From Opitutaceae bacterium (lineage in GTDB: Bacteria; Verrucomicrobiota; Verrucomicrobiia; Opitutales; Opitutaceae): a stretch of 64,000 nt of DNA. The stretch lies in assembly GCA_028691845.1 (NCBI GenBank), contig JAQUYL010000013.1:1-64000 (forward strand). Direction: 5' to 3'. Shown in pieces: positions 30,485 to 55,898 of this stretch. The translations under genes were made by a program, and so were the position numbers. Below the pieces are notes generated by a model. The model ran no database searches, was not told where the DNA came from, and worked only from the letters and a program-made list of their open reading frames with translations. The number at the start of each line of letters is the position of its first letter. Within the stretch, counting starts at the first letter, position 1.

Positions 30485-32503
30485 ATGAACAAAAGGCTGG
30501 ACATGCACTCGTTCCTCAAAATCGGACGGCACGTCCATCTCCCCGGCAGCAGCATACGCATCTTCAATGGACGGATTGTCACGAAGCTCGTCCTCAGTTT
30601 TCTGCTGATAATTCTGCTGACCAGCGGGACCTTCATCCTCGTAGGAGTACGGGTCATCGGATACCGCATCGTGGATGAGGCCCAGTCCAAGGTGCAGACC
30701 GACCTCAATTCCGCAAGAGAGATCCTGTTAAACAAACTGGCCTCGATCAATGACGTGGTGCGGTTCACCGGCGACCGCTTTTTGCTCATGAATGAATTGC
30801 TGGCGGGCGACACCAGGCAAGTCGCCGAGGTCTTTAGGCGGATCAGGGAGCGCGAAAAACTTGATGTATTGACCATCACAGACAAACGCGGCCGCGTAAT
30901 TTTGCGAACGGGCGATGGGAACCAAGTGGGCGACGATCAAAGCCATGACGAACTCGTGCGCGCCGTGATCGAGCGCAATGAACCCGTAGCCGCTCCCTGC
31001 ATTGTCCCGGCAGAGGAGTTGCGGCGGGAGGCATCGTGGCTGGCGGAGCAGGCGCGCATCACATTCAACGGCTCTCCCTCCCCACCGGGCCAGACGAAAT
31101 CCGAGGAGACTGCGGGAATAATGTTGAAGGCCGCGGCTCCCATCCTGGACCCAGAGAAGAACCTCCTGGGCGTCGTTTACGGCGGCCTGCTCTTGAACCG
31201 GAACTTTGAAATCGTGGACCGTATCAAGGGGACCGTCTTCCAGAACCTTCAGTACAAGGGCAAGGACATCGGCACGGCCACTATTTTTCAAGACGGCCTG
31301 CGTGTCTCGACCAATGTGAAATACGAAGATGGCTCGCGGGCCATCGGTACCAGGGTGGCGGATGACGTATACCGGCAGGTCGTGCTGGAAGGAAAGCCCT
31401 GGGTCGGGCCCGCCTTTGTCGTGAACCACTGGTACATTACCGCCTATGAACCGATCCGGGACCTGACAGGCCGGATCATCGGCATGCTCTACGTGGGGGT
31501 GCTGGAGCAGAAATATGCCGATCTACGGCAGCGGGCAGTGCTGGTGTTTCTGGGCATCACGCTGGCTGGGGCCCTAGCGGCGCTGGTGCTGGCCTTCTTC
31601 ATCTCTGAAAAAATCTCGGGCTCGATCAAGAAGCTGGCGGTGGCTTCGGAACAGGTGGCGCACGGCAATTTGGAGGCCAAGGTTGAAATTCGCTCCCAGG
31701 ACGAGTTGCGGGAATTGGCGGACACGTTCAACTTCATGGCGGCGGCTCTGAAGAAACGGGACGACCAACTCCGGGAGTATACCACCCGCCGGATCAAGGA
31801 ATCCGAGCGGCTCGCCCATATCGGCCAGCTGGCGGCCGGCGTGGCGCATGAGATCAACAATCCGCTCCAGGGAATCATTACCTACGCCCATTTGCTGCTG
31901 GAACGGACGGGGGCAGAGAACGGTTCGCGGGAGTTCCTGCAAAAAATAGTCATACAGGCAAACCGCTGCCGCGACATCATTCGCGGCCTGCTGGATTTTT
32001 CCCGACAGCGGAAGCCGGACAAGCGCTTGTCCAATGTGAACCGGGTCTTGGAGGAATGCATTAGTTTGGTGGACAATCAGGCTCTCTTTCACAATATACA
32101 GATCGTCAAGCGTCTCGGCCAGGACCTGCCTCAGGTCCTGATGGATCCATCGCAAATCCAGCAGATCTTCATGAATCTGGTCATCAACGCGGCAGAAGCG
32201 ATGAATGGCGAGGGACAGCTTACTCTCGTCACCAGGTTTGTTTCGACAGACAACACCGTCGAGGTGGAGATAACCGACACCGGCCACGGCTTTACCGAAG
32301 AGGGCCTCAACCGGATTTTCGACCCGTTCTTCACCACCAAGGAGGAGGGGCACGGGACGGGGTTGGGCTTGGCCATCAGTTACGGGATCGTCAAGGAGCA
32401 CAAGGGAACCATCACTGTTGAAAGCCAGGTGGGCAAGGGCGCCACCTTCGTCGTTTGTTTGCCCGTGACGGGCGAGCAAGAGGTCGTTCGCCGTGCTGGC
32501 TAA
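30485..32503 (+). CDS. Membrane sensor histidine kinase (Cache-HAMP-HisKA)
   Basis: A 672-aa kinase. The start at 30485 (MNKRLDMHSFLK) follows a GGAAG box; an ATG at 30449 is an alternative. The first membrane helix lies at about 30-56. A periplasmic Cache-type domain (about 60-345) follows, with VLTITDKRGRVILRTGDGNQ and KAAAPILDPEKNLLGVVYGG motifs. The second helix is at about 352-376 and leads to HAMP and a coiled coil. HisKA has His455 in GVAHEINNPLQGI, the NtrB-like form often paired with sigma-54 activators. The HATPase has NLVINAAEAMN, DTGHGF and GTGLGLAIS. It starts a run of coupled genes leading into the Hdr operon; an extracellular small molecule is the likely signal. Confidence 0.88.
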   Translation: MNKRLDMHSFLKIGRHVHLPGSSIRIFNGRIVTKLVLSFLLIILLTSGTFILVGVRVIGYRIVDEAQSKVQTDLNSAREILLNKLASINDVVRFTGDRFLLMNELLAGDTRQVAEVFRRIREREKLDVLTITDKRGRVILRTGDGNQVGDDQSHDELVRAVIERNEPVAAPCIVPAEELRREASWLAEQARITFNGSPSPPGQTKSEETAGIMLKAAAPILDPEKNLLGVVYGGLLLNRNFEIVDRIKGTVFQNLQYKGKDIGTATIFQDGLRVSTNVKYEDGSRAIGTRVADDVYRQVVLEGKPWVGPAFVVNHWYITAYEPIRDLTGRIIGMLYVGVLEQKYADLRQRAVLVFLGITLAGALAALVLAFFISEKISGSIKKLAVASEQVAHGNLEAKVEIRSQDELRELADTFNFMAAALKKRDDQLREYTTRRIKESERLAHIGQLAAGVAHEINNPLQGIITYAHLLLERTGAENGSREFLQKIVIQANRCRDIIRGLLDFSRQRKPDKRLSNVNRVLEECISLVDNQALFHNIQIVKRLGQDLPQVLMDPSQIQQIFMNLVINAAEAMNGEGQLTLVTRFVSTDNTVEVEITDTGHGFTEEGLNRIFDPFFTTKEEGHGTGLGLAISYGIVKEHKGTITVESQVGKGATFVVCLPVTGEQEVVRRAG

Positions 32504-33626
32504 ATCCAAAATATTAATCATCGACGACGAGGAAGTCGTACTCGATTCCTGCACGCAGGTGCTGGCCGGTGCGGATTGCGTTGTGGCGACCGCCGGCAAC
32601 GGGGTCCAGGGATTGAAGCTGATGGAGGAAACCACGCCCGACCTCGTCTTCCTGGACCTCAAAATGCCGGGTCTCTCCGGTTTTGAAGTGCTGGGAGAAA
32701 TCCGGGGCAGGCATCCGGACATGGTCGTTATAGTCATTACCGGCTACGCGACCGTAAGCTCGGCCGTCGAGGCGATGAAAAAGGGCGCGTTCGATTTCCT
32801 GCCCAAGCCGTTCACGCCCGAGGAACTGCGCCTGATTTTCCGACGTGGATTGGAACATCATAGCCTGGTGCAGCAAACCGTCGCCCTGCGGCGCGAAAAA
32901 GAGATGCTCCGGGAGAATTTTGCGGCGATTGTTTCTCATGAACTCAAGGCGCCGTTGGGTGCGATTCAACAAAACCTGTATGCGCTAACCGAGGATCTGG
33001 CGGACAAACTGTCCGACAGTCAGAGGGACCTTTTCGGGCGCCTCAAGATCCGCCTCGATGACCTCCTGAAGCTCATCCACTCCTGGCTCCGAATCATATC
33101 GGTGGATGTCAACCAGTTGAAGGGGACCTTCAGCCCGCTCTCCGTGGCCGACGTCTTGTCCAAAGCGATTGAGACGACCCAACCTCACGCGACGCGCAAG
33201 GCCATTGAAATCCAAGCGATTGTGGGGGAACCGCTCCCCCGCGTCAACGGCGACGAGGGCAGTCTAACCGAAGTGCTGGTCAACATTATCGGCAATGCTG
33301 TGAAATATTCATTTCCCCACAGCAAGATCCGCGTACGGGTCGAAGCCCAGGGCGCGCAGGTGCTGTTGTCGGTGGCAGACACTGGCGTGGGCATTGCGAA
33401 AGACGACCTGCCCTTCCTTTTCCAGGATTTTGTGCGAGGCCAGGCACAGCCCGGCGGTGCGACCGGTTGCGGGTTGGGCCTGGCGATCAGCCGGCGGATT
33501 GTCGAGGTGCACGACGGCTCGATCACGGTGGAGAGCGAACCCGGCAAGGGCAGCACCTTCGTCATCTGCCTCCCGGCCGTGCCCCCGGCGACCGAGAGCA
33601 ACCCCATCCCTGAACGCAAGGCATAA
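32493..33626 (+). CDS. Receiver-histidine kinase fusion
   Basis: A 377-aa protein beginning with GTG inside the previous gene (11-base overlap). The N-terminal receiver has IDDEE, phospho-acceptor Asp55 in VFLDLKMPGLSGFE, and the KPFTPEEL Lys. The kinase core has His149 in IVSHELKAPLG, NIIGNAVKYS, DTGVGIAKDDL and GCGLGLAISRRIVE. The REC-kinase order repeats the design of the genes at 15991 and 17079. It probably receives phosphate from the membrane kinase and integrates a second input. Confidence 0.87.
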   Translation: MLAKSKILIIDDEEVVLDSCTQVLAGADCVVATAGNGVQGLKLMEETTPDLVFLDLKMPGLSGFEVLGEIRGRHPDMVVIVITGYATVSSAVEAMKKGAFDFLPKPFTPEELRLIFRRGLEHHSLVQQTVALRREKEMLRENFAAIVSHELKAPLGAIQQNLYALTEDLADKLSDSQRDLFGRLKIRLDDLLKLIHSWLRIISVDVNQLKGTFSPLSVADVLSKAIETTQPHATRKAIEIQAIVGEPLPRVNGDEGSLTEVLVNIIGNAVKYSFPHSKIRVRVEAQGAQVLLSVADTGVGIAKDDLPFLFQDFVRGQAQPGGATGCGLGLAISRRIVEVHDGSITVESEPGKGSTFVICLPAVPPATESNPIPERKA

Positions 33627-33627
33627 T

Positions 33628-34053
33628 ATGAGCCAACCAAAACGACTCCTGATTATCGACGATGACCCCGACTTTGTCGCGGGTATCAAGTCTATTCTGG
33701 TTAAGGCGAAGTACGAAGTGGACGTCGCCTACAATCCCAAAGACGGCTTCCAAGCCCTGAAAGACAAAGCCTACGATCTGCTGCTCCTCGACGTCATGAT
33801 GGGCCGCGGGGCCGAAGGCATCATGGTCGCTCGCAAGCTGGGCAAGGATCCCAATCTGCGGAATATGCCCGTGCTGATCATCACCGGCATCCGCGAGCAA
33901 ATGGCCTTTCTCTTCCCCGGCCAGGCGGTGCATCCGCACTTTGTGTCCGTGGACGAGCTGGTTGAGAAACCAGTCGAACCCAAGCTCCTGCTCGATCGAG
34001 TACAAGCCTTGCTGATAAAATCGGCAGAGGCACGAAAAACCAATAGCAAATGA
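33628..34053 (+). CDS. Single-domain response regulator
   Basis: A 141-aa stand-alone receiver with the acidic cluster IIDDDPDF, phospho-acceptor Asp55 in LLLLDVMMGRG, and Lys in LVEKPVEPKLL. It has no DNA-binding or enzymatic output domain. A family trait visible here is an inserted segment, EQMAFLFPGQAVHPHFVSVD. This variant occurs in regulators encoded next to redox modules, but that association is inference. Its stop overlaps the hdrC start by four bases (ATGA), so the regulator and hydrogenase/Hdr genes are translationally linked. Output may be protein contact or through the NtrC-type regulator at 59082. Confidence 0.87.
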   Translation: MSQPKRLLIIDDDPDFVAGIKSILVKAKYEVDVAYNPKDGFQALKDKAYDLLLLDVMMGRGAEGIMVARKLGKDPNLRNMPVLIITGIREQMAFLFPGQAVHPHFVSVDELVEKPVEPKLLLDRVQALLIKSAEARKTNSK

Positions 34054-34670
34054 ACGCTGCCCCTCCGCTGGAAAAAGACGTGGTTCCTGATCCAACCCCG
34101 CCGGAAAACGGTCTCTCCTTCGTCGAGGAGATCCACAATCTGCTCCATGCTTCTGTCGGGAACCCAATCAGCTCGTGCATCCAGTGTGGCACCTGCGCGG
34201 CCACCTGCCCTGTTGCCTCGGGCGGATTCATGGAACACACGCCGCGCCGGATCATTGCCCTGATCCGGGCGGGATTCAAGGAACAGGTGCTGAAGGCCAA
34301 CACCTTCTGGTATTGCGCGTCCTGCTACCAGTGCACCGTCCGGTGTCCGCGGGGCATCGACATCGCCGAATTGATGTACGGCCTCAAGCGCTACACGGTC
34401 TGGAAGACCCAGTACCAGAAGGGACTGATCGGCCCGGTGTTCTCCGAGACGTTCGTGAAGATGATCCTGCGGACCGGCCGATCCTATGAACCCATCTTGG
34501 CCACAACCTACATCTTCACCTTCGGCCTTCCGGAAATGATCCAGGAGGCGCAAAACGGCACCGCCCTCATGCTCAAGGGCAGGCTTCCCTTGCTGCCGCC
34601 CAGAATCAAGCGGCTCGAAAACTTCAAGCGCATGATTCGGCGGATTATTCCATTGGGAGACTCAGAATGA
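34050..34670 (+). CDS. hdrC: Heterodisulfide reductase-like subunit C
   Basis: A 206-aa iron-sulfur protein that passes electrons between HdrA and HdrB. Two [4Fe-4S] sites are complete: C43-C46-C49-C53 in CIQCGTCAATCP and C89-C92-C95-C99 in CASCYQCTVRCP. The C-terminal 100 residues are helical, without cysteines. Overlaps with the response regulator upstream and hdrB downstream (ATGA at 34667) place it in one translational unit. In methanogens and some bacteria HdrABC with MvhADG couples H2 oxidation to ferredoxin and disulfide reduction by flavin bifurcation. The acceptor here is unknown because CoM/CoB are not expected. Confidence 0.92.
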   Translation: MNAAPPLEKDVVPDPTPPENGLSFVEEIHNLLHASVGNPISSCIQCGTCAATCPVASGGFMEHTPRRIIALIRAGFKEQVLKANTFWYCASCYQCTVRCPRGIDIAELMYGLKRYTVWKTQYQKGLIGPVFSETFVKMILRTGRSYEPILATTYIFTFGLPEMIQEAQNGTALMLKGRLPLLPPRIKRLENFKRMIRRIIPLGDSE

Positions 34671-35563
34671 AGACCTACGCGTATTTCCCGGGCTGTTCAC
34701 TCGAGAAGATGGCGCAAAGCTACCACCTTTCCGCCCTGGAGACCACCCGCGTCCTGGGGGTGGAACTCAAGGAACTGGAGGACTGGAATTGCTGCGGAGC
34801 CACAGCCTACTTCCACGTGGACGAACTGCTCGCCTACACCCTCTCGGCGCGCAACCTCGCCATGGCTGAGAAGGAAAAGCTCAACTTGGTGGCGCCTTGC
34901 AGCGGTTGCTACAAGAACATGTATTTCACCCGGGAGCACCTGCTGCGTGATCCGGACCTAGCTGAGCACATCAATGACGCGCTGGCTGAGGACAACTTGA
35001 GGTTTTCCGGCAGTGCCAACGTCCAGCACCTGCTGGAGGTCTTCGTGCATGAGGTGGGGCTGAAGGAAATCAGGGCCAAGGTTACCAATCCCCTGAAGGG
35101 GCTGCGGGTAGCGCCATATTATGGCTGCCAAATCCTGCGGCCGCGCAAGGACCACGAAGACATCGAACAGCCACGCTACTTCGAGGAGCTCGTGGGCGCC
35201 CTGGGCGCGGAGCCGGTCGATTATCCGCTCCGGCTGCGGTGCTGCGGCGGAGCATTGATCCTCACCAATCGCGTGGCTGCCCTCAGCATGGTGCGCAATC
35301 TCCTCGAGAGCGCTGTGAAGGCGGGTGCGGCGGTGGTCGCGACGGCCTGTCCGCTGTGCCAGGTCAATCTCGAGTGCTACCAAAAGCAGGTGAACAAGGA
35401 ATTCGGGACGGAGTTCTACCTGCCGATTATGTATTTCACTCAATTGATCGGTCTCGCGCTGGGCATCCCGCCCAAGCGTCTGGGTATCGGTTCGGAATTC
35501 GTGGCAGTGATGCCGGCCATAGCCGAGGCCCGCGATGCCGATCCTGTCCCCACTGGCAAATAA
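34667..35563 (+). CDS. hdrB: Heterodisulfide reductase-like subunit B
   Basis: A 298-aa protein with two full CCG domains, each expected to hold a non-cubane [4Fe-4S] cluster at the active site. The first set is C10, C42-C43 and C78/C81 (PGCS, WNCCG, PCSGC). The second is YYGCQ, LRCCGG and TACPLCQ. Both are intact, unlike the degenerate sites in the two related proteins at 37347 and 39370. It is the likely catalytic subunit that reduces a disulfide or another acceptor, with HdrC and HdrA. It sits between hdrC and etfB in the same operon, 15 bases before etfB. Confidence 0.92.
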   Translation: MKTYAYFPGCSLEKMAQSYHLSALETTRVLGVELKELEDWNCCGATAYFHVDELLAYTLSARNLAMAEKEKLNLVAPCSGCYKNMYFTREHLLRDPDLAEHINDALAEDNLRFSGSANVQHLLEVFVHEVGLKEIRAKVTNPLKGLRVAPYYGCQILRPRKDHEDIEQPRYFEELVGALGAEPVDYPLRLRCCGGALILTNRVAALSMVRNLLESAVKAGAAVVATACPLCQVNLECYQKQVNKEFGTEFYLPIMYFTQLIGLALGIPPKRLGIGSEFVAVMPAIAEARDADPVPTGK

Positions 35564-35578
35564 CCCCTCAATCAACAT

Positions 35579-36355
35579 ATGAACCTCTACGTCCTCCTTA
35601 AAATGGTTCCCGATACGGTGGAAGAGCTCAATGTGGCCACCGATGGCAAGTCATTGGATTCGGAATTCCTGAGGTTCAAGCTCGACGATCCGGACGAGCA
35701 TGCGCTGGAGCAGGCCCTCCTCCTCAAGGAGAAGCATGGAGGCAAGGTGACCGTGGTCGCCTTGGACGCACCGGAGGTAGACGAGGTGCTCTTCACCGCC
35801 CTGGCCAAGGGGGCCGATCGTGCCGTCAAGATTCTGGTCAACCAGTCCGGCTTGGGCACTGTCGCAGCGGCCAGAGTGCTGGCAGACTACTTCGCTTCCG
35901 CCTCGGACAAGATCACTTCCGATACATTGGTGCTCCCTGGCTCGCAGGCGATTGACGACCTCGAAGGCGAATTGGCGCCCTCGTTGGCGGCGGCGCTGAA
36001 TCTTCCCTTTGTCGGTGTCGTGAGTGGCGTGACGCTTGCGAAGGAGCAAGCCGTGGTCACGAAGGAGTTTGCCGGAGGGCTGCGCGGGGAGTTTGAAGTG
36101 GCGCTGCCGGCGGTGCTGGGGATCCAGTCCGCCGAAAAGCCGCCCCGCTACGTTCCCGTGGCCAAGGTGCGGGCCGTGATGAAATCCGCCAAGATCGAGA
36201 CCGTGGACCACACGCCTCCCGATCGTCTGATCCGACTCGAACTCGATCGGATGTACAAGCCAGAGGCCGCCGGCCGCGCCCAGATGCTCGAAGGGGCCCC
36301 GGAGGGAATCGCGGACAAGCTCGTGGAAGTGCTGGCAAATAACAGTGTGATTTAA
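35579..36355 (+). CDS. etfB: Electron transfer flavoprotein beta subunit
   Basis: A 258-aa EtfB forming with EtfA a soluble FAD/AMP-or-FAD electron carrier. Typical features are MNLYVLLKMVPDTVEE at the start, DEHALEQALLLKEKHGGKVT, ALAKGADRAVKI and the P-loop-like LPGSQAIDDLEGELAPSLAA. The C-terminal recognition region is also present. Whether it is a bifurcating ETF (second FAD in the beta subunit) or a conventional one cannot be settled by eye. It is preceded by hdrB and followed 13 bases later by etfA with a strong GGAGG site, so the pair is co-made with the Hdr proteins. Confidence 0.9.
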   Translation: MNLYVLLKMVPDTVEELNVATDGKSLDSEFLRFKLDDPDEHALEQALLLKEKHGGKVTVVALDAPEVDEVLFTALAKGADRAVKILVNQSGLGTVAAARVLADYFASASDKITSDTLVLPGSQAIDDLEGELAPSLAAALNLPFVGVVSGVTLAKEQAVVTKEFAGGLRGEFEVALPAVLGIQSAEKPPRYVPVAKVRAVMKSAKIETVDHTPPDRLIRLELDRMYKPEAAGRAQMLEGAPEGIADKLVEVLANNSVI

Positions 36356-36368
36356 GGAGGGGAAACAT

Positions 36369-37340
36369 ATGGCTACTGCAATTCTGGTTTTGGCAGAGCA
36401 ACTCCGGGGCGAGATCGCCGACATCACCTTTGAAATGCTGGGCGCAGGGCGCAAGCTGGCCAGTGCGTCGGGCGTGCCTCTCTACGCCGCGTTGCTGGGC
36501 AGTGAAGCCGCCCCGCTCGCCGCGAGGCTGGGTCTGGCAGACAAGGTTTTCGTCGCGGATCAACCGCAGCTCAACCTTGCCCCGGCCCACACGATAGCCG
36601 TGGCGCTCAAAGCTATTTTGGACCAGGCCCAGGTTGGGCTGGTTTTGATTGGCGGCACCAATGGGTCGATCGGGATCGGCTCCTTTCTGTCGGCCAAGAC
36701 CGGCCTACCCTTGGTAAACTTTGGGCGGGCGGCCAAACTTGAGGCCGGCGCCGTGGTGGTTACCAGCCAGTTGTTTGGCGGCAAAATCCTGTCCGACGTG
36801 AAGCTGGCGGACGGACGGGGCATCGTAAGCATCTACCCGGGTGCGTTCCCGGTGGAGGCGGGCAAGAGCGAGGGGACACCGTCCGTCGAGAAAGTGGACG
36901 TGGCGATCGAGGCGCCGAAGGTGTCCTTCAAGCAATACCTGGAACCCGAGAAAGGCGATGTGGACATCACGAAACAAAGCGTCCTCGTGGGCGTGGGTCG
37001 CGGCATGCAGACGCAGGACAACGTGCAACTGGCCGAGGATCTGGCGCGGATCTTGGGCGGCGCGGTCTGCGCGTCACGGCCCGTGATTGATCAAGGCTGG
37101 CTGCCGTTGAGTCGGCAGGTCGGCAAGTCCGGCATGACTGTCAAACCGCGCGTTTATCTGGCCTTGGGCATCAGTGGCGCGCCGGAGCATTGGGAAGGAA
37201 TGCAAAACTCCCAGTGCATCATCGCCGTCAACACCGATCCCAAGGCGCCCATCTTCGACGGGGCGCATTACGGCGTGGTGGGAGATGTTTTGGAACTGCT
37301 GCCTATTCTAATCGACAAGGTTAAAGCGAGAAAGGGGTGA
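36369..37340 (+). CDS. etfA: Electron transfer flavoprotein alpha subunit
   Basis: A 323-aa EtfA starting 12 bases after GGAGG. The C-terminal FAD-binding domain has ASRPVIDQGWLPLSRQVGKS-type sequence (split here as SRPVIDQGWLP and RQVGKSGMTVKP), YLALGISGAPEHWEGM, AVNTDPKAPIF and AHYGVVGDVLELLP. No N-terminal ferredoxin domain is fused. ETFs collect electrons from acyl-CoA or similar dehydrogenases and pass them on. The adjoining EMO-like membrane protein suggests transfer to menaquinone or the reverse reaction. Confidence 0.91.
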   Translation: MATAILVLAEQLRGEIADITFEMLGAGRKLASASGVPLYAALLGSEAAPLAARLGLADKVFVADQPQLNLAPAHTIAVALKAILDQAQVGLVLIGGTNGSIGIGSFLSAKTGLPLVNFGRAAKLEAGAVVVTSQLFGGKILSDVKLADGRGIVSIYPGAFPVEAGKSEGTPSVEKVDVAIEAPKVSFKQYLEPEKGDVDITKQSVLVGVGRGMQTQDNVQLAEDLARILGGAVCASRPVIDQGWLPLSRQVGKSGMTVKPRVYLALGISGAPEHWEGMQNSQCIIAVNTDPKAPIFDGAHYGVVGDVLELLPILIDKVKARKG

Positions 37341-37346
37341 GACACC

Positions 37347-39356
37347 ATGGATCCGGTTAAGAGCACAATTCTGGGGCTGCCAGGGGTGCTGTTGCTCTGG
37401 TTGCTTACCGTTGCGGCCTTCGGCGTCTTTGGCTACCGGATCTGGCGGCTCATTGGACTCCTGCGGCAGGGACGCTACGAAAGCCGCTTCGACCACCTTG
37501 GCCAGCGCCTGTGGCATGGAATCAAGCACGTCCTGCTGCAGCCGCGGATATTCAACGAACGGAGCATCGGTCTGCCGCACTTCCTGATCTTCTGGGGCTT
37601 TGTCGTCTATGTGATCTGCTTCAATTGGGCGTTGTTGCGCGGACTGTTCCCCTTTCTGTCGGTTCCCTATCCGGATGCCGTCAAGGTCGCCGCCCTGTTT
37701 CTCGAGAGCTTTTCGGTGTTGGTGCTGATTGGGCTCGGCGTGGCTGTGGCGAGACGGCTCTACTTCGCCCCCAAGTATCTGCACCTGAGCTTCGACGCCA
37801 ACCTGATCCTTGGGCTCATCGGCTTGCTGATGCTGAGCACGCTGTTCATGAATGCCTTCCGCATCGTGAGTGAAGGCGGTTTCACGTCCGCCTGGACGCC
37901 GTTTGGCAGTCTCTTGTCCAAGGCTTTCACCACGATGCCACCGGGGAAGGCCCACACCCTCGCCAATGGCATGTGGTGGCTCCACATGACAGTGGTGCTT
38001 TTGTTCCTGGTCTATCTGCCCTACTCGAAGCACCTGCACCTGTTTGCGTCGCCGTTCAACGTGTTCTTCAGCCAAGGCGCTACGCGCCCCGTGGGGGATC
38101 TGGGCGTCATCGGGGCGAAGGAAGACCTCTCGGCCGGCGCCGCCCGGTGGCAGGATCTCACCTGGAAGCAGTTGCTGAGCGGTTTCTCATGCGCCGAATG
38201 CGGGCGCTGTGACCGTTCGTGTCCCGCGACCGCCTCCGGCAGCCCGCTCCAGCCGCAGCAGATTGTGCAAAAGATCAAGAGCCACATGGTCCGTGTGGGG
38301 CTGGCGCGAAAGAACGGCGACGCAGTGCCCAAGCTCATCGGAGACGTAATCACCGAAAAGGAAGTCTGGGCCTGCACGACCTGCATGGCGTGCATGAATT
38401 GTTGTGCCGTGTGGAATGAGCAGGTCGCGCTCATCGTGGCCCTCCGCCGTCATCTGGTCAGCGAGGGACAGGTCGAGCGCACTGTGCAGGACATGCTGGG
38501 CAACCTGCAGCGTTACGGCAACTCGTTCGGCAAATCCGATCGCCTGCGGGCGAAGTGGGCGCAGACCGCCGGCCTGAAAATCAAGGACGCCCGCAAGGAA
38601 CCCGTCGAGTATCTCTGGTTTGTGGGCGATTACGCCAGCTACGATCCGCGGTGCGAGGACATCACGAAAAAGACCGCCGGCGTCTTTGCGCAAGCAGGAC
38701 TCGACTTCGGGTTGCTGCACGAGGCCGAGCGCAATGCCGGCAATGACGTGCGTCGCGTGGGCGAGGAGGGCTTGTACGAGATGCTTCGGGACAAAAACCT
38801 TCAGGCCATCGGGAAGGCGCAATTCAAGAAGATCATCACGACTGATCCCCATACCTACCATACGCTCAAGAACGAGTATCCGTGGAACGGCCATCGGCCT
38901 GAGATCCTGCACTACACGGAGGTGCTCGACGGGTTAGTCCAGGCCGGCCAGCTGCCATTGAAGCGGAAACTGGCCGGTCGCGTGACTTACCACGATCCTT
39001 GCTACCTCGGGCGCTATAACGGGGTGTATGACGCGCCGCGCCACGTCTTGCGCGCGTTGGGACTCGAGCTCGCCGAAATGCCGCGCTGCCGCGACCGGAG
39101 CTATTGCTGTGGCGCCGGCGGCGGCCGCATCTGGATGGAGGACACCGAAAAAGTGGCGGAGCGCCCCGCAGAGAATCGCATCCGCGAGGCCGTCGCGCTT
39201 GGGGGCGTACAGACCTTCGTGGTCGCCTGCCCGAAAGACATCGCGATGTTCCGAGACGCCGTGAAGACGACCGGCCACGAGGACAAGCTGGCGGTGAAGG
39301 ACCTCGCGGAATTGGTAGCGGAGGCAATGGCCGACGAGAGCCCGAAACCTGCCTGA
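37347..39356 (+). CDS. Membrane Fe-S protein resembling ETF:menaquinone oxidoreductase (EMO)
   Basis: A 669-aa fusion. The first 245 residues form five membrane helices with His in GLPHFLIFWGF, WWLHMTVV and YSKHLHLF, as in NarI-type heme b subunits. A ferredoxin-like part has CAECGRCDRSCP and CTTCMACMNCC clusters. The C-terminal HdrD-like part has one intact CCG site (YHDPCYLGRYNG, SYCCGAGGG). The other half-site has lost its cysteines: WFVGDYASYDPR, NAGND and TTDPHTYHTL stand where Cys is usual. This matches EMO-type proteins reported to link ETF with menaquinone. It follows etfBA by six bases. Direction could be quinone reduction or energy-driven reverse flow. Confidence 0.85.
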   Translation: MDPVKSTILGLPGVLLLWLLTVAAFGVFGYRIWRLIGLLRQGRYESRFDHLGQRLWHGIKHVLLQPRIFNERSIGLPHFLIFWGFVVYVICFNWALLRGLFPFLSVPYPDAVKVAALFLESFSVLVLIGLGVAVARRLYFAPKYLHLSFDANLILGLIGLLMLSTLFMNAFRIVSEGGFTSAWTPFGSLLSKAFTTMPPGKAHTLANGMWWLHMTVVLLFLVYLPYSKHLHLFASPFNVFFSQGATRPVGDLGVIGAKEDLSAGAARWQDLTWKQLLSGFSCAECGRCDRSCPATASGSPLQPQQIVQKIKSHMVRVGLARKNGDAVPKLIGDVITEKEVWACTTCMACMNCCAVWNEQVALIVALRRHLVSEGQVERTVQDMLGNLQRYGNSFGKSDRLRAKWAQTAGLKIKDARKEPVEYLWFVGDYASYDPRCEDITKKTAGVFAQAGLDFGLLHEAERNAGNDVRRVGEEGLYEMLRDKNLQAIGKAQFKKIITTDPHTYHTLKNEYPWNGHRPEILHYTEVLDGLVQAGQLPLKRKLAGRVTYHDPCYLGRYNGVYDAPRHVLRALGLELAEMPRCRDRSYCCGAGGGRIWMEDTEKVAERPAENRIREAVALGGVQTFVVACPKDIAMFRDAVKTTGHEDKLAVKDLAELVAEAMADESPKPA

Positions 39357-39369: not shown

Positions 39370-40575
39370 ATGATCGCCCCGTTTGAACCTGCAGTCGTGG
39401 ACAAAGCCACCACCCTCGAGACGCTCCTGGAGACGCCCGCGGGGAAACGCATGATGACATGCATCCAATGCGGCACGTGCGCCGGCACCTGCCCTTATGG
39501 CGAACACATGGACTTCTCACCCCGGCTGGTCATCAACATGCTGCGCGGCGGGTTCATCGACGAAGTTATCAAGTCCGACAGCCTGCTGCGCTGCGTCTCC
39601 TGCTACGCCTGCATGGCCAAGTGCCCGCGCGGCATCCGGCTGACGGACGTGCTGCTGCCGATGGTGAAGGAACAGGTGCTCGTTACCCAGTCCGCCATGC
39701 CGGCTGAATTCCAGAAGTCGCTGGAAAACATGCACCGTTACGGCAATCCGATGGGCGAGTCCCCGCGCAAGCGCGCCGCATGGACAGCCACGGCTGGCAC
39801 GAAGATTCCGCTCATCGCCGAGGTGAATCGCGAGGTGGACGTCCTGTGGTTTGTCGACAGCTACATGTCCTTTTACGCCCGCGGTCAGGACAATGGTCGC
39901 GCCACGGCCCGGCTGTTCAACGCACTGGGCGTGGATTTCGCCATTCTCGGCAATGAGGAGAAATCTGCCGGCGAATGCGGACAAGTCACCTGGGAGTCGG
40001 GACTATTCGAGTCGTTGGCGGAGTACAATGTGAAGCTGTTCAACAAGTACAAGTTCCAGCGGCTGGTGACCGGCGATGCCCACGCCTACAATGCGTTCCA
40101 CTTCCGCTACCCGATGTATGGCCTGACCCAGCCGGCGGAGCACACCGCGCAGTTCTTCGCCCGCCATCTGGACCAGTTGAAGCCCAGGCTCACAAGGCCG
40201 CTGAACCTGACGGTCACCTATCACGATGCCTGCTGTCTGGGGCGGGCCGTGGGTTCCTACGACGAGCCCCGGGCCCTGCTTCAGGCCATTCCGGGCGTGA
40301 AGCTTGTCGAGATGGTGCACAATCGCGTGAATTCGCTCTGCTGCGGCGGCGGTGGCGGGGGCATGTGGCTCGACACTTACTACAAACAGAAGGGCATGGA
40401 GCGGCTGTCCGAGCGGCGCGTCAAGGAAGCCATCGCCACCGGCGCGGATGTGCTCGCCGTGTCCTGCCCCTACGAGATTTCCCGGTTTGAAGACGCTTTG
40501 AAAGTGATTCCGCACGACAAGCCAATCGTCGTACGCGATGTCGCGGAACTGTTGGCTGACTCCCTTGCTTCCTAG
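39370..40575 (+). CDS. HdrD-like Fe-S reductase subunit (soluble)
   Basis: A 401-aa protein joining HdrC-like and HdrB-like parts. Two [4Fe-4S] sites are CIQCGTCAGTCP (about 32-42) and CVSCYACMAKCP. One CCG domain is intact: YHDACCLGRAVGSYDEPR, SLCCGGGGGGMW. The preceding half-site is without ligands (WFVDSYMSFYARG, SAGECGQ, TGDAHAYNAFHF). It therefore can bind one non-cubane cluster, like DsrK-type proteins. It lies between the EMO-like gene and hdrA, so it may connect the membrane protein with the soluble HdrA complex or replace HdrBC in an alternative complex. Confidence 0.87.
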   Translation: MIAPFEPAVVDKATTLETLLETPAGKRMMTCIQCGTCAGTCPYGEHMDFSPRLVINMLRGGFIDEVIKSDSLLRCVSCYACMAKCPRGIRLTDVLLPMVKEQVLVTQSAMPAEFQKSLENMHRYGNPMGESPRKRAAWTATAGTKIPLIAEVNREVDVLWFVDSYMSFYARGQDNGRATARLFNALGVDFAILGNEEKSAGECGQVTWESGLFESLAEYNVKLFNKYKFQRLVTGDAHAYNAFHFRYPMYGLTQPAEHTAQFFARHLDQLKPRLTRPLNLTVTYHDACCLGRAVGSYDEPRALLQAIPGVKLVEMVHNRVNSLCCGGGGGGMWLDTYYKQKGMERLSERRVKEAIATGADVLAVSCPYEISRFEDALKVIPHDKPIVVRDVAELLADSLAS

Positions 40576-40583: not shown

Positions 40584-42617
40584 ATGAAACCAATCGTACC
40601 GAAGAAACACGAACCCATTCGCATCGGTTTCTACATCTGCCACTGCGGAACCAACATCGCCGGCATGGTGGATGTCGAGGCGGTGGCCAAATATATTGGC
40701 ACGCTTCCCAACGTGGCGGTGTCGCGCCACTACAAGTACATGTGCTCCGATCCCGGACAGGAGCTGATCCAGCAGGACATCCGGGAAACCCACTTGAACC
40801 GGATCGTGGTGGCGGCGTGCTCGCCGCAGTTGCACGAGCACACCTTCCGCATGGCCACGGCGGCGGGGGGGCTCAATCCCTATCATTTCCAGATGGTCAA
40901 TGTGCGTGAACACGATTCGTGGGTGCACACCGACCGCGTCGAAGCCACACGCAAGGCCATGGCCTTGGCCCGCGCCGCCGTAATGCGCGTGCCGCATCAC
41001 AAGCCCTTGGAGGTTAAAAAGGTCGCCATCAATCCCAACGTGCTGATAGTCGGCGGAGGCATTGGCGGCATTCATGCGGCGCTCACCCTGGCCAACGCGG
41101 GCAAGATGGTTTATCTCGTCGAGAAGGAGCCGACCATCGGTGGGCACATGGCCAAGTTCGACAAGACCTTTCCGACGCTGGACTGCGCCATGTGCGTGCT
41201 CTCGCCCAAGATGGCTGCGGTTGGTTCCCATCCGAACATCCACCTTTGGACCTATTCGGAGGTGGCGAAGGTGGACGGCTACGTCGGCAACTTCAAGGTG
41301 AGCGTGCGCCGCAAGGAGCGTTACATTCTGGAGGATCTCTGCACCGGCTGCCAGGAATGCGTCAACGCCTGCGTGTTCAAGGAACCGAAATTCCAGGATG
41401 AGTTCAATCTTGGGCTCGGCAAACGCAAGCCGATCTACCTGCCGTTCCCGCAGGCCATCCCGCCGGTGACCTTGATCGATCCCGAGGTCTGCCTGAACTT
41501 CAAGCGGGGAAGGAATCCGGATGGCTCGCACACGGTGTCCGACAAATGCAAGAAGACCTGCGTCGAGGCCTGCGGTGACCGCAAGGCGATCGATTTCAAG
41601 CAGCAGGAGGAGATCAAGGAGATCACGGTCGGCACGATCATCATGGCCACCGGCTTCCAGATTTTCGACGCCAAGCGGACCCCGTATTATGGTTACGGGA
41701 TTTATCCCAATGTCTATAACGCGCTGGAAATCGAGCGGCTGATCAATGCCTCCGGTCCGACCGAAGGCGAGCTGGTCATGCGCAACGGCCAGTCACCGAA
41801 AAAAGTCGCCATCGTCCACTGCGTCGGTTCTCGCGACGAGAACACCAACCGGTGGTGCTCGCGGGTCTGCTGCCTTTACTCGCTCAAGTTGGCGCACCTC
41901 ATCAAGGAGCACACCGAGGCCGAGGTGTACAATTTCTACATCGATATGCGCACGCCCGGCAAAAGCATGGAGGAATTCTACAACCGCGTGGCCGAGGAGG
42001 GCATGCATCTCATTCGCGGCCGGGTGGCCGACGTGTACCCCGATCCGAACGACGGCACGACCGGTCGCCTCGTGGTCCAGGCCGAGGATACCCTGACGAA
42101 CAAGATCCTGAAAATCCCGGTGGACATGGTCGTGCTGTCGGTGGGGTTGGAGCCGCATCCTGAAGCCGAGAACCTGCGGCGCATGTTCAACCTGAGTTGC
42201 AGCAGCGAAGGCTGGTTCCTCGAACGGCACCCCAAGCTGGCGCCGGTGAACACCTTCACCGACGGCATTTTCCTGGCTGGCTGCTGCCAGGGGCCCAAGG
42301 ATATCCCGGACACGGTCGCCCAAGCCGGCGCCGCGGCGGCAGAGGCTCTGGCGCTCATCGACAAGGGCCACATCGAGCAGGAGCCGAACACCGCCTACAT
42401 CCTCGCCGAGGAGTGCAGCGGCTGCAAATCCTGCATCCCGTTGTGCCCCTACACGGCCATTGCCTTCGACGAGACGAAGAAAAAGGCCATAATCAACGAG
42501 GCGCTGTGCAAGGGCTGCGGCACTTGCGTGGCGTCCTGCCCGTCCGGATCGATTGTACAAAACCTCTTCGAGGATGCCGAGATCTTCAGCGAGATCGACG
42601 GCGTGCTGGCCGACTGA
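40584..42617 (+). CDS. hdrA: Heterodisulfide reductase-like subunit A (FAD, bifurcating)
   Basis: A 677-aa flavoprotein expected to carry the bifurcating FAD. The N-terminal cluster domain has YICHCGTNIAG. Ferredoxin-type cysteines CTGCQECVNAC lie near 254-264. The Rossmann FAD site is VLIVGGGIGGIHAALTLA (about 154-171). HdrA-specific Cys are seen in DCAMCVLSPKM and HCVGSRDENTNRWCSRVCC. The C-terminus has two further ferredoxin motifs, CSGCKSCIPLCP and CKGCGTCVASCP. This set matches methanogen-type HdrA. It gives electrons from MvhD to HdrBC and to ferredoxin. MvhD is a separate downstream gene and is not fused. It begins nine bases after the HdrD-like gene. Confidence 0.93.
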   Translation: MKPIVPKKHEPIRIGFYICHCGTNIAGMVDVEAVAKYIGTLPNVAVSRHYKYMCSDPGQELIQQDIRETHLNRIVVAACSPQLHEHTFRMATAAGGLNPYHFQMVNVREHDSWVHTDRVEATRKAMALARAAVMRVPHHKPLEVKKVAINPNVLIVGGGIGGIHAALTLANAGKMVYLVEKEPTIGGHMAKFDKTFPTLDCAMCVLSPKMAAVGSHPNIHLWTYSEVAKVDGYVGNFKVSVRRKERYILEDLCTGCQECVNACVFKEPKFQDEFNLGLGKRKPIYLPFPQAIPPVTLIDPEVCLNFKRGRNPDGSHTVSDKCKKTCVEACGDRKAIDFKQQEEIKEITVGTIIMATGFQIFDAKRTPYYGYGIYPNVYNALEIERLINASGPTEGELVMRNGQSPKKVAIVHCVGSRDENTNRWCSRVCCLYSLKLAHLIKEHTEAEVYNFYIDMRTPGKSMEEFYNRVAEEGMHLIRGRVADVYPDPNDGTTGRLVVQAEDTLTNKILKIPVDMVVLSVGLEPHPEAENLRRMFNLSCSSEGWFLERHPKLAPVNTFTDGIFLAGCCQGPKDIPDTVAQAGAAAAEALALIDKGHIEQEPNTAYILAEECSGCKSCIPLCPYTAIAFDETKKKAIINEALCKGCGTCVASCPSGSIVQNLFEDAEIFSEIDGVLAD

Positions 42618-42639: not shown

Positions 42640-43197
42640 ATGGCTAACACAATACAGCCCCCCTTACCTGACGGCAAATGGAAGCCGCGTATCGTAGCCT
42701 TCTTTTGCAATTGGTGCACCTATACGGCCGCCGACCTGGCGGGAGTGTCCCGGATGAAGCACGCGGCCAACGTGCGCATCATCCGGCTCATGTGTTCAGG
42801 TCGTGTGGACCCGCAATTCATCATCGCCGCGCTGACGAAGGGGGCGGACGCCGTCCTCATCGGCGGCTGCCACCCCAACGACTGCCATTACTCAGAGGGA
42901 AACTACAAGTGTCTCCGTCGCAATCAAATGCTCAAACGGATGCTTGCCGACATGGGCATCGAGCCGGAGCGAGTGCGCCTCGAATGGATCTCCGCCGCCG
43001 AAGGCGAGAAGGTCAAGCGCGTCATTAACGAATTGGTGGAGACCATTTCACGGCTCGGTCCGCTGGGAATCCCGCAGAAGTTCGAGGAGTGGGACCGGGA
43101 AATGAGCGAACTCACCCGTCAGATGAGTAAACAGCAGGAAGCAGTTGACGGGGGCGAGACTCCCGTTGCGGTCAAAACGGAGGTAATCCATGTCTAA
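42640..43197 (+). CDS. mvhD: MvhD-type [2Fe-2S] electron-transfer subunit
   Basis: A 185-aa protein that docks the hydrogenase to HdrA. The start at 42640 follows a GAAAGGA box. Cluster cysteines are C23 and C26 (FFCNWCTYTAADLAG), C52 (MCSGRVDP), and C77 and C82 (GGCHPNDCHY). The conserved MvhD domain ends near residue 140. A C-terminal extension of about 45 residues (FEEWDREMSELTRQMSKQQE and a charged tail) is unusual and probably a helix. Its last eight bases overlap mvhG. Confidence 0.92.
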   Translation: MANTIQPPLPDGKWKPRIVAFFCNWCTYTAADLAGVSRMKHAANVRIIRLMCSGRVDPQFIIAALTKGADAVLIGGCHPNDCHYSEGNYKCLRRNQMLKRMLADMGIEPERVRLEWISAAEGEKVKRVINELVETISRLGPLGIPQKFEEWDREMSELTRQMSKQQEAVDGGETPVAVKTEVIHV

Positions 43198-44173
43198 GCC
43201 CAAAGTAGCCTTTTACTGGTGCGCCTCATGTGGAGGCTGCGAAGAAACCGTCGTAGACCTGGCCGAGGATATCCTCGGGGTCGTCGAGGCAGTGGACATT
43301 GTCCTCTGGCCCGTTGCGATGGACTTTAAATACAAGGAAATCGAGGACATGCCGGACAAGTCTATCACCGCGACTCTGCTCAACGGCGCCGTCCGGTCTA
43401 CCGAACAGGAGGAAATGGCCCACCTGATGCGCCGCAAAAGCCAGTTCCTTATCGCCTATGGCTCGTGTGCTGTCAACGGGGGTATTCCCGGCCTGGCCAA
43501 CCAGTTTACGCGGGAGCAAATCCTCAAGTACAACTACGAGGACGCGCCGACCCTGGGCAACGGCGGGCAGAAGATACGTCCGCAGTTGAAATCTACCGAG
43601 GACGGCCGCGAACTCTCGCTGCCCGAGCTCCACAACGTCGTCCGCTCGCTGGACCAGGTCGTCGAGGTGGATTATTACGTGCCGGGCTGTCCGCCGACGC
43701 CCAACATCACCAAGACTGCCATCACGGCGTTGCTGGAAGGCAGGCTGCCGCCCAAAGGCTCGGTGCTCGCCCCCGACATCGCGCTTTGCGAGGAATGCGA
43801 TCGCAAGGCCAGCAAGCCCACCAATCTCGCCTTCACCGAGTTCAAGCGAACGCATCAAAAACTGATCGACCCGACCCAGTGCCTGCTCGCGCAGGGCGTC
43901 GTTTGCATGGGGCCGGCCACCCGCAGCGGCTGCGGGGCGCAATGCCTCGGCGGCAACATGCCGTGCACCGGCTGCTTCGGGCCCACCTCGCGGGTGCGTG
44001 ACCAGGGCCTCAAGATCATGTCCTCACTCTGTGCCAATGTCGCACCGAAGGAGGAGGGCGACATCAGCAAGGTGCTGGAGGGTATCCCGGACCCGATCGG
44101 CACCTTCTACCGTTACGGCCTCGCCAAGAGTATGCTCCGCCGCAAAGTGAATCTCCCTGCCAATGGAAAGTAA
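43190..44173 (+). CDS. mvhG: [NiFe] hydrogenase small subunit, Mvh (group 3c) type
   Basis: A 327-aa soluble small subunit carrying the electron-relay clusters. Proximal-cluster residues are in WCASCGGCEE, YGSCAVNGGIPG and YVPGCPPTPNIT. C-terminal cysteines (CEECDRK, CLLAQGVVCMGP, SGCGAQCLGG, PCTGCFGP) supply the other clusters. No Tat signal is present, so it is cytoplasmic. It overlaps mvhD and directly precedes mvhA, which agrees with an Mvh-type H2-oxidising module feeding HdrA. Confidence 0.93.
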   Translation: MSKPKVAFYWCASCGGCEETVVDLAEDILGVVEAVDIVLWPVAMDFKYKEIEDMPDKSITATLLNGAVRSTEQEEMAHLMRRKSQFLIAYGSCAVNGGIPGLANQFTREQILKYNYEDAPTLGNGGQKIRPQLKSTEDGRELSLPELHNVVRSLDQVVEVDYYVPGCPPTPNITKTAITALLEGRLPPKGSVLAPDIALCEECDRKASKPTNLAFTEFKRTHQKLIDPTQCLLAQGVVCMGPATRSGCGAQCLGGNMPCTGCFGPTSRVRDQGLKIMSSLCANVAPKEEGDISKVLEGIPDPIGTFYRYGLAKSMLRRKVNLPANGK

Positions 44174-44174
44174 T

Positions 44175-45704
44175 ATGAACCCAACGACTCAAGAAGCCTT
44201 CAATCAGGGCAACCTCCGCGCCAACGCTGCCTACCAGTCGGCCCGCCGCAGCGTCACCATCAACCCCATCACCCGGCTCGAAGGCCACGGCAGAATTGAC
44301 ATCTTCCTCGACGACAAGGGCGACGTGGAACGGGCCTACCTGCGAGTGCCCGAACTCCGCGGCTTCGAGGTCTTTTCCCTCGGCCGCCCGGCGGAGGACA
44401 TGCCACAAATCACCAGCCGCATCTGCGGCGTTTGCCCCACCTCCCATCACATGGCCTCGACGAAGGCACTGGACGACCTCTACAAGGTCGAGTCCACTTC
44501 GGCGGGCCGCAAGATCCGCGAGCTGGTCTACAACACCTTCATCCTGGAAGACCACGCTCTCCATGTCTTCGTGCTGGGTGGGGCGGATTTCTTTGTGGGT
44601 CCAGAAGCCCTGCCCGCACAGCGCAACATCGTCGGCGTCATCGGCAAGGTTGGCCTCGAGGCCGGCAAGAAGGTCATCAGCACCCGCCGGCGGTTGCGCG
44701 AGTTGATCGCCTACTTTGGCGGCAAGGTCGTGCACCCAGTGTTCGGCCTGCCGGGCGGCGTCAGCAAGGCACTCAAGCCCGAAGATCTGCCCAAATTCAA
44801 GCAGCTTGCCCAGGACGGCCTCGAGTTCGCCCTCTGGACGCTGAGTGTGTTCAGGAAACTCGTCCACGGCGACCCGGTCTATTTGAAGATGATCACCTCC
44901 GACGCGTACACCCACAAGACCTGCTATATGGGGATGGTGGACGAGCAGAACAAGGTGAACTTCTATGACGGCAAGCTGCGCGTCGTGGACTGCACCGGCA
45001 AGGAGGTCTGCAAGTTCGCCGCACAGGAGTATCTGGATTACGTGGCCGAGCACACCGAACCGTGGAGCTACATGAAGTTTACCTTCCTGAAGCAGCGCGG
45101 CTGGAAGGGATTTGTAGAGGGACCGGACACAAGCATTTATTCGGTCGCTCCGCTGGCCCGCCTCAACGCCTCCGACGGCATGGCTACACCCGAGGCCCAG
45201 GCCGCTTACGAGTCATTCTACAAGACCTTGGGCGGCAAACCAGTGCACTATACGCTCGCCAACCACTTGGCGCGCATCATCGAGATGGTCTATGCCGCCG
45301 AGCGCATGGTGCAACTCGTCAACGATCCGGAGATTACCAGCCCCGAAGTGCGACGGGTACCGACCAGTGTGCCGAAAGTTGGGATAGGGGTCGTCGAGGC
45401 TCCGCGTGGCACTCTCTTCCATCATTACGAGACCGACGAGAAGGGCTTGATCAGCAAGGCTAACATGATCGTGGCCACCGGCAACAACGCCGCCCGTATC
45501 GCCATGAGTGTCGATAGGGCCGCGAAAGGGCTCATCAAGGGCGGCCATGTCTCCGAAGGACTCCTGAATGAAGTGGAGATGGCCTTCCGCGCCTATGATC
45601 CCTGCCTGGGGTGCGCGACGCACTCGCTGCCCGGCCACTTGCCGCTCAAGGTCAGCATCTACGACCACGACCGCCGGCTGGTGCAGCAGTTGGTGCAGGA
45701 CTAG
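44175..45704 (+). CDS. mvhA: [NiFe] hydrogenase large subunit, Mvh (group 3c) type
   Basis: A 509-aa large subunit with the NiFe(CN)2CO site. L1 motif: SRICGVCPTSHH with C84 and C87. L2 motif: DPCLGCATH with C477, C480 and His483. Twenty-six residues follow His483, the expected C-terminal peptide removed by a maturation protease; a candidate protease gene follows. The start at 44175 (MNPTTQEAFN) has GGAAAG five bases upstream; 44163 is an alternative overlapping mvhG. With mvhD, mvhG and hdrABC it can supply electrons from H2 for bifurcation to ferredoxin and a second acceptor. Confidence 0.94.
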   Translation: MNPTTQEAFNQGNLRANAAYQSARRSVTINPITRLEGHGRIDIFLDDKGDVERAYLRVPELRGFEVFSLGRPAEDMPQITSRICGVCPTSHHMASTKALDDLYKVESTSAGRKIRELVYNTFILEDHALHVFVLGGADFFVGPEALPAQRNIVGVIGKVGLEAGKKVISTRRRLRELIAYFGGKVVHPVFGLPGGVSKALKPEDLPKFKQLAQDGLEFALWTLSVFRKLVHGDPVYLKMITSDAYTHKTCYMGMVDEQNKVNFYDGKLRVVDCTGKEVCKFAAQEYLDYVAEHTEPWSYMKFTFLKQRGWKGFVEGPDTSIYSVAPLARLNASDGMATPEAQAAYESFYKTLGGKPVHYTLANHLARIIEMVYAAERMVQLVNDPEITSPEVRRVPTSVPKVGIGVVEAPRGTLFHHYETDEKGLISKANMIVATGNNAARIAMSVDRAAKGLIKGGHVSEGLLNEVEMAFRAYDPCLGCATHSLPGHLPLKVSIYDHDRRLVQQLVQD

Positions 45705-45770: not shown

Positions 45771-46262
45771 ATGCCATATCCCGCCAAAGTCCTGGTGCTC
45801 GGGCTTGGCAACGACATCCTGACCGACGATGCCGTCGGCCTGCAGGTCGCTAATGCCGCCCACGAAGCTCTCGCCGGCGACCCGCATATCGAGGTCAAGG
45901 CGACAACCGAGATGGGTCTTGCCCTGCTCGACGAGATCGTCGATCGCGAGGCCGTGGTGATCGTGGATTCGGTGCAAACCGGCAAGGCTCCTCCGGGGCA
46001 CATCCATGAAATCGGGCCGGAGGATCTCCCGAGCCTGTTTGCCACCTCGCCTCATTTTCTTGGGGTGGGGGAGACATTGGCCCTAGGCCGCCTGCTCGGC
46101 TTGGCCATGCCCCGGCAAATTCGCATTTTCGCCATTGAGGTGCAGGACCCTTTTACCTTGGGTACGCATCTTTCCGCTGCCGTCCAGCAGGCTGTGGCGC
46201 CGGCCGTTGAACGGGTCATTGCCCAGGCCGGTGAATTTGCTGCAATGACTACTCCTGCCTGA
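45771..46262 (+). CDS. Hydrogenase maturation protease
   Basis: A 163-aa HycI/HyaD-family endopeptidase that removes the C-terminal peptide of the large subunit after nickel insertion. The VLGLGNDILTDDAVGLQV motif with Asp, the IVDSVQTG segment and SPHFLGVGETLALGR with His are the metal-sensing residues. The likely substrate is the mvhA product just upstream, since the EchE product at 56703 ends at its L2 motif. It follows mvhA after a terminator-like hairpin. Confidence 0.9.
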   Translation: MPYPAKVLVLGLGNDILTDDAVGLQVANAAHEALAGDPHIEVKATTEMGLALLDEIVDREAVVIVDSVQTGKAPPGHIHEIGPEDLPSLFATSPHFLGVGETLALGRLLGLAMPRQIRIFAIEVQDPFTLGTHLSAAVQQAVAPAVERVIAQAGEFAAMTTPA

Positions 46263-49635: not shown

Positions 49636-49651
49636 CGAATGACGAGTCTTG

Positions 49652-49680
49652 TCATTCCCGACAAAGCGGGGGAATCTTAG
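49652..49680. repeat. Intergenic hairpin repeat of the GTCATTCCCG type
   Basis: The sequence GTCATTCCCGACAAAGCGGG and the following GGAATCTTAG form a short imperfect hairpin (ATTCCC with GGGAAT). This pattern is widespread as an intergenic repeat in bacterial genomes. It separates the membrane protein from the DNA polymerase gene. Confidence 0.45.
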
Positions 49681-49717
49681 TCAAAACCACCCCGGCGGTT
49701 CGGGCGTGGACCTCCGC

Positions 49718-51919: not shown

Positions 51920-52303
51920 GCTGCAAGGCGGGATCGTTTTTCAAGGTGCAGGAGGCGTTTCAAATGTTTCCGGCCGGCCGGCACGATCAGCAGGAATCCT
52001 GCGGGAAGCCTTGCTGAAAGGCGGATGAGATCATCGGCCAATTATGTTAGCAGGCATACGGGCCTGATTAGCAGACGTGCAAAATGCCCTTTGCTTGCAT
52101 TGGATCAGGATGGGTCGAAGTGCGGAAGCTGTTGGAGGACAGGCCAGCCGGCATTCCGGCGGGGCGATTCCATAGATGAGGCGAATGGGCTTGCACGGCG
52201 GGGGAGTTTCCAAGGAAGACGAGCCAACGCTGCCCCGTGGTGTGCAAAAGCATCGACACTGCCGTTCCTGCTGTTTGTCGTGCCGGAGCGATCATGTAAT
52301 CTC
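51920..52303. other. Gene-free stretch before hypA
   Basis: This 384-base gap between the DNA polymerase gene and hypA contains no convincing gene, hairpin or promoter. An open frame continuing into hypA from 52025 has no family-like sequence before the HypA start. Confidence 0.5.
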
Positions 52304-52645: not shown

Positions 52646-52646
52646 C

Positions 52647-52871
52647 ATGCGCAAGGACTGTGGTCGCAGCGTTGAGACGGAGGCGGCAGTGAACGGACCT
52701 TCCGGTCGTCAGGCATCGGCGCCATTGTTGAATTCCGAGGTCGAGTGCGGTTGGGCCCAGTCTCATCCGGATCAGAGCGTGGAGATCTTCAGCAAAAGCG
52801 ATCTGGCTGCAGCTGCGGAGTATCCTCGCGCAAAAGCATTGGATACTGGTTCTTCACCCGGGGGGCATTAA
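52647..52871 (+). pseudogene. Short frame resembling a decayed HypB N-terminus
   Basis: A 74-codon frame begins one base after the hypA stop, where hypB often lies. It starts MRKDCGRSVETEAAV, close to the MCxxCGC nickel-binding start of HypB. Two of the three cysteines would be changed to Arg (positions 2 and 7), and no GTPase domain follows. It ends at 52871 in unrelated sequence. It may be a hypB remnant or an unrelated small protein; the similarity covers only about ten residues. Confidence 0.35.
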
Positions 52872-52940
52872 GATAATTCTTATGCGGATAATCTCCAGCT
52901 TATGACTTGAGTATTCATACACACTAAAATCGTTACATCG

Positions 52941-55897: not shown

Positions 55898-55898
55898 G

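Follow-up and report, generated by a model that had tools for sequence, protein, structure and literature searches.

The stretch of DNA analysed here, 64,000 nucleotides from an Opitutaceae bacterium (contig JAQUYL010000013.1, positions 1 to 64,000; referred to as the window), carries a run of genes on one strand which encode, in this order, a membrane histidine kinase (HK1), a soluble kinase with a receiver domain (RecHK), a stand-alone receiver (Rec), HdrC, HdrB, EtfB, EtfA, a membrane Fe-S/CCG protein, an HdrC/CCG protein, HdrA, MvhD, the small and large subunits of a hydrogenase and a protease (Table 1). HK1 and RecHK are genes 1 and 2 of a conserved block that ends with HdrB; the former contains two hydrophobic segments, at residues 26-60 and 349-379, and no hydrophobic segment was found in the sequence of the latter. 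A scan of GTDB genomes placed the closest relatives of the window HdrB in Verrucomicrobiota, at 77-82% identity.

Table 1. Products of the gene run, with positions in the window and the basis of each assignment.
Product	Description	Positions	Strand	Basis
HK1	membrane histidine kinase, 672 aa: sCache_3 (extracytoplasmic), HAMP, HisKA, HATPase_c	30485..32503	+	Pfam
RecHK	soluble kinase, 377 aa, GTG start: N-terminal receiver, HisKA, HATPase_c	32493..33626	+	Pfam
Rec	stand-alone long-loop receiver, 141 aa, ATG start	33628..34053	+	PF00072, alignment
HdrC-like	206 aa, two CxxCxxCxxxC [4Fe-4S] motifs	34050..34670	+	Pfam and NCBIfam-type models
HdrB-like	298 aa, two CCG (cysteine-rich) domains	34667..35563	+	family models
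EtfB	partner module, outside conserved block	35579..36355	+	label from sequence and gene order, no Pfam scan behind it
EtfA	partner module	36369..37340	+	label from sequence and gene order, no Pfam scan behind it
Membrane Fe-S/CCG oxidoreductase	669 aa, about four N-terminal hydrophobic segments; partner module	37347..39356	+	family models
HdrC/CCG	fusion-like protein, 401 aa; partner module	39370..40575	+	family models
HdrA	partner module	40584..42617	+	HdrA2 model, 825 bits
MvhD/FlpD	partner module	42640..43197	+	family models
[NiFe]-hydrogenase small subunit	VhuG type	43190..44173	+	family models
[NiFe]-hydrogenase large subunit	VhuA type	44163..45704	+	family model
Hydrogenase maturation protease		45771..46262	+	TIGR00072, score above cut-off

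The elements by which an HdrABC-MvhADG system is recognised, namely HdrA, an HdrB with two CCG domains, an HdrC with two 4Fe-4S motifs, MvhD and the hydrogenase subunits, are all encoded in the window, and in this the locus resembles the MvhADG-HdrABC-type [NiFe]-hydrogenase/heterodisulfide reductase. It differs from that system in being bacterial, in scoring below the archaeal equivalog cut-offs (73.9 bits for HdrC against the CoB-CoM HdrC equivalog TIGR03290, the cut-off of which is 160 bits) and in the addition of Etf, the membrane Fe-S protein and the signalling cassette. The gene of the membrane Fe-S/CCG protein lies beside EtfAB and travels with Etf instead of the Rec block; its product is of a kind that could connect Etf with the quinone pool. 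A second hydrogenase is encoded 7 kb downstream of the first, where positions 52025-57782 carry a HypA-like gene and, after it, the genes of a complex-I-like/Ech-type membrane [NiFe]-hydrogenase with antiporter-like, NuoH-, NuoB-, NuoC- and NuoD-like subunits, and a family B DNA polymerase gene occurs in this bacterial genome at 49649-51919.

Among Pfam families Rec matches PF00072 alone, with 61.4 bits against a gathering cut-off of 30.2. The acidic pocket, the phosphorylated Asp and the conserved Thr and Lys (D11, D12, D55, T86 and K114) are invariant in 28 orthologues. The conservation reaches far beyond the phospho-site, with 56 invariant columns in the 28 aligned sequences and two conserved loops, MGRGAEG following the phosphorylated Asp and REQxAxLFPG following the Thr. 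Between T86 and K114 there are 27 residues, with an expanded loop at about residues 96-108, in which F96, P97, G98 and P103 are invariant. The AlphaFold model, computed for a single chain that cannot show a partner, has the standard receiver fold with a moderate mean pLDDT of 80; the loop at 96-103 is poorly folded on its own (block means 49-55), which, as far as the model goes, is as expected of a conserved loop that would become ordered on a partner. The best match of the model in the PDB was the FrzS receiver. This match hinted at a degenerate pseudo-receiver, a possibility ruled out by the complete phospho-site; a FixT-like Fe-S-binding receiver was ruled out as well, since neither the window Rec nor 27 of the 28 orthologues contain Cys.

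The sequence-only reading had described a single-domain receiver whose stop codon overlaps the start of hdrC by ATGA, and this was borne out: the reading frame runs from ATG at 33628, and its TGA (34051-34053) shares the four bases with the hdrC ATG at 34050. The hdrC/hdrB junction has an identical 4-base overlap, and overlaps of 8-11 bases occur at the HK1/RecHK, MvhD/VhuG and VhuG/VhuA junctions. Among the relatives, the -4 overlap between Rec and hdrC was found in the window and seven other loci, all of the close Verrucomicrobiota group; elsewhere the two genes are separated by 7-18 bases and in many Chloroflexota by 63-149 bases. The overlap being limited to close Verrucomicrobiota, coupled translation of receiver and hdrC, which had been proposed from it, is possible in this genome but is not the trait maintained by selection, and it was ruled out as the main feature of the pair. 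In the close Verrucomicrobiota group, HdrC is extended at its N-terminus by about 20 aa rich in Pro and Ala (34050-34115 in the window); the extension, which includes the overlapping start, is missing in other phyla. In seven Chloroflexota loci (L060, L064, L066, L068, L074, L077 and L087) the gap of 113-149 bases might leave room for a promoter or a processing site.

Non-conservation of the receiver-hdrC pair in other genomes had been named as one half of the outcome that would refute direct binding of the receiver to the redox complex, and the pair proved to be conserved in at least four phyla. The GTDB scan with HdrB gave 57 loci. Wherever HdrB was at least 64% identical and enough upstream sequence was available (29 of 29 loci), the block HK1-RecHK-Rec-HdrC-HdrB was present with Rec immediately preceding hdrC on the same strand, the kinase genes of a few of these loci being cut short by the end of the contig or interrupted by a frame error. 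These loci belong to Verrucomicrobiota, Bacteroidota/Ignavibacteria, Chloroflexota and Armatimonadota; three more (L053, L073, L092) are cut by a contig end, and in the 25 loci with HdrB at no more than 49% identity no such receiver was found upstream of hdrC. Nearly all of the genomes compared are metagenome assemblies. A search with the receiver alone recovered seven orthologues in 400 Chloroflexota genomes (the centre genome of the search included), all followed by hdrC, and in 388 Verrucomicrobiota genomes the orthologue of the window's own genome only. Each of 17 genomes tested contained exactly one Rec orthologue (237-269 bits), the next receiver scoring at most 90 bits. Single-protein searches of close relatives returned generic receivers only, because the Rec gene is patchily distributed.

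Around the block the cluster is rearranged in three or more ways, the five genes staying together. Etf and HdrA lie downstream of it in Verrucomicrobiota; in Chloroflexota Etf is upstream and HdrA downstream; in L069, L072 and L079 all of these lie upstream; and in L067 the block sits between the genes of the small and large hydrogenase subunits. The conserved feature is thus the gene order, a five-gene signalling-redox block, rather than the overlap. No description of this block or of the receiver class discussed below was found in the literature searched.

Comparison of the proteins over the same loci showed that Rec is the best conserved within the block, with a mean pairwise identity of 0.74, followed by HdrB (0.70), HdrC (0.66), RecHK (0.60) and HK1 (0.60). 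The distances of Rec correlated best with those of HdrC (rho 0.71), then with HdrB (0.54), HK1 (0.49), RecHK (0.39) and the hydrogenase (0.26-0.34). After control for the other block genes, the partial correlation was 0.53 for HdrC against 0.10 for HdrB and 0.07 for either kinase, a difference supported by the bootstrap, the rows of which are not independent. Neighbouring genes can diverge in step because they were transferred together, though the kinase genes are equally close. The distances of HdrA, MvhD, hydrogenase and Etf are correlated among themselves (rho 0.6-0.9) and form a separate module; the likelier partner of Rec is therefore the HdrC/HdrB unit and not the whole complex. In the HdrC of the block loci, compared with that of loci without Rec, about thirty residues are clade-specific, and most of them lie in the C-terminal half.

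Weaker relatives of Rec, at about 30-40% identity, also adjoin redox complexes. They share a long loop: the conserved Thr and Lys are separated by 24-31 residues, compared with 20-23 in ordinary receivers. As a class we propose receivers with at least 24 residues between Thr and Lys whose gene has an anaerobic redox complex, or genes for its maturation, within about 7 kb; the window Rec, with its 27 residues and hdrC adjacent, belongs to it on both counts. The complexes found near such receivers are of the Hdr, HydABC, Ech/complex-I-like and NrfD types. The [FeFe] hydrogenase HydABC is the neighbour in L030, L032 and L139, together with Rex and an HK1-like kinase, HdrCBA-MvhD in L137, and a complex-I-like or Ech-type hydrogenase in L138, L141, L145 and L146; tandem receivers accompany MetF-HdrA-MvhD in L147. 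A fusion of receiver and HdrC was looked for and not found; in L142 (146-919) and L144 (9536-10309) two long-loop receivers are fused in tandem (257 aa), and an unfused HdrA-like gene follows directly. Further examples were noted in L197, L198, L206 and L232, from genomes of delta-proteobacterial sulfate-reducer relatives (G857-G860), where a long-loop receiver lies beside MetF, HdrA and MvhD, and in L203 (5063-12702), where three long-loop receivers and a kinase-like protein accompany an NrfD/ferredoxin/CCG membrane redox complex.

The association was assessed as gene proximity. A redox complex within 7.5 kb was present at 24 of 26 long-loop loci versus 1 of 33 short-loop control loci of the same genomes (p=4e-13) and, in a second set (L194-L233, 20 further genomes, mostly of other phyla), at 11 of 12 versus 0 of 27 (p=7e-9), these p-values and those below overstating independence because several loci come from the same or near-identical genomes. 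Stricter counts are given for the second set, since some redox neighbours were recognised by queries from the examined loci: leaving out queries drawn from the tested locus itself, 10 of 12 long-loop loci retained a redox neighbour, and with a query set fixed beforehand the counts were 7 of 12 versus 0 of 27 (p=5e-5). Being stand-alone is not the reason for the association, for among single-domain receivers only, 30 of 33 with a long loop and 0 of 15 with a short loop lay by redox complexes (p=7e-10). In a tree built without the loop columns the short-loop receivers lay to one side of a single, weakly supported branch.

It had been suggested that the receiver, made in step with HdrC, could bind the redox complex directly; the weight placed on the overlap, a local and ordinary feature, was not supported, and the suggestion was borne out in part, the pair being conserved in at least four phyla. 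The interpretation towards which we incline, with slightly more confidence than doubt, is that Rec is the output of a dedicated cassette (HK1 and RecHK) and acts post-translationally, by phospho-dependent docking on the HdrC, together with HdrB, of the neighbouring hydrogenase/heterodisulfide-reductase-type complex. HK1, RecHK or both would set the phosphorylation of Asp55, which would alter the face formed by residues 88-115, the expanded loop 96-108 included. This face would bind the clade-specific C-terminal half of HdrC, and the docking may couple or uncouple HdrC/HdrB from HdrA, Etf and the hydrogenase, activation and inhibition both being in view. The co-divergence with HdrC, stronger than with the kinases, and the tie of the class to unrelated redox complexes agree with a direct action of Rec on the complex. 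No DNA-binding gene occurs in the HK1-RecHK-Rec cassette, and at several FeFe-hydrogenase loci with long-loop receivers the Rex repressor is present for transcription; both observations were counted for post-translational action.

By analogy, the proposed mechanism may be compared with that of EpsW, a single-domain regulator of Myxococcus xanthus which stimulates the enzyme EpsZ, proximity labelling pointing to direct contact (PMC12802240). EpsW too is a receiver without output domain and acts on an enzyme post-translationally and in a phosphorylation-dependent manner, but its target is a phosphoglycosyl transferase and its kinase input a chemosensory system. FixT of Caulobacter is likewise a stand-alone receiver in a redox setting; unlike Rec, it binds an Fe-S cluster through a 4-Cys site and inhibits a kinase (PMC7078487). 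Among the better NCBIfam matches of Rec is another single-domain receiver, DVU0259_DivK of Desulfovibrio (NF045717), but at 51.2 bits Rec is far below the cut-off of 160 bits and the match is confined to residues 5-93. The DVU0259 gene presumably lies near the genes of the Tmc redox complex.

The main rival is a transcriptional output through a sigma-54-dependent response regulator encoded 25 kb away, by the Ech-type genes (59082-60581). Rec would then be a phosphate sink or relay, HK1 and RecHK would control this or another unlinked DNA-binding regulator, and HdrC and HdrB would be mere co-expressed neighbours. No HK1- or RecHK-like kinase was found in the 20 kb around that regulator, which makes it a candidate output of the two kinases, and upstream of the block in L056 the genes of an HK1-family kinase and a sigma-54 response regulator stand directly together, so that transcriptional output is possible elsewhere. 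However, a search for a sigma-54 promoter tying the regulator at 59082 to the operon gave no site above chance. Neither the highest conservation within the block nor co-divergence with HdrC would be required of a sink, and the association of long-loop receivers with unrelated redox complexes would be left unexplained; we regard this explanation as unlikely. A second HK1-like kinase (about 545 bits) is encoded upstream of the block, on the other strand, in L056 (669-4091), where it is the sigma-54-paired one, and in L058 (867-4243).

The flow of information might also be reversed, with HdrC/HdrB as redox input, Rec/RecHK sensing the state of its clusters and signalling it to the kinases, and the block being a redox sensor derived from an enzyme module. 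That enzyme activity and signalling can be linked is a familiar theme; the evolution of HdrC and HdrB follows the signalling genes, not HdrA or the hydrogenase, and the separate HdrC/CCG protein could serve HdrA. Yet both proteins retain their full cluster-binding motifs, HK1 already has an extracytoplasmic sensor domain of its own, and the neighbours of the wider class are diverse catalytic complexes, not HdrC/HdrB; we consider the reversal rather improbable. That the block spread as one piece by horizontal transfer and that the adjacency has no further functional meaning agrees with the scattered occurrence (in 1 of 388 Verrucomicrobiota and in 7 of 400 Chloroflexota genomes), but this is already disfavoured and seems to us very improbable: the five genes hold together while the rest of the cluster rearranges in several ways, and long-loop receivers standing independently by unrelated redox complexes are not accounted for.

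Going beyond the docking of Rec on HdrC, it is tempting to speculate, though with a little more doubt than belief, that the long-loop single-domain receivers, an apparently undescribed class, are a plug-in regulatory subunit of unrelated anaerobic electron-transfer machines (Hdr, HydABC, Ech/complex-I-like, MetF-Hdr and NrfD-type), docking on their Fe-S subunits and phospho-switching electron flow faster than transcription could. Little is understood of how electron bifurcation and hydrogen metabolism are controlled rapidly, and the control that is known is mostly transcriptional, for example by Rex. Through the class, many genes annotated just as "response regulator" receive a name and a likely role. 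Loop length is a sequence mark of receivers that lie nearly always beside redox complexes, which would make post-translational two-component control of redox enzymes directly testable across many phyla; electron-transfer enzymes may thus be under direct signalling control.
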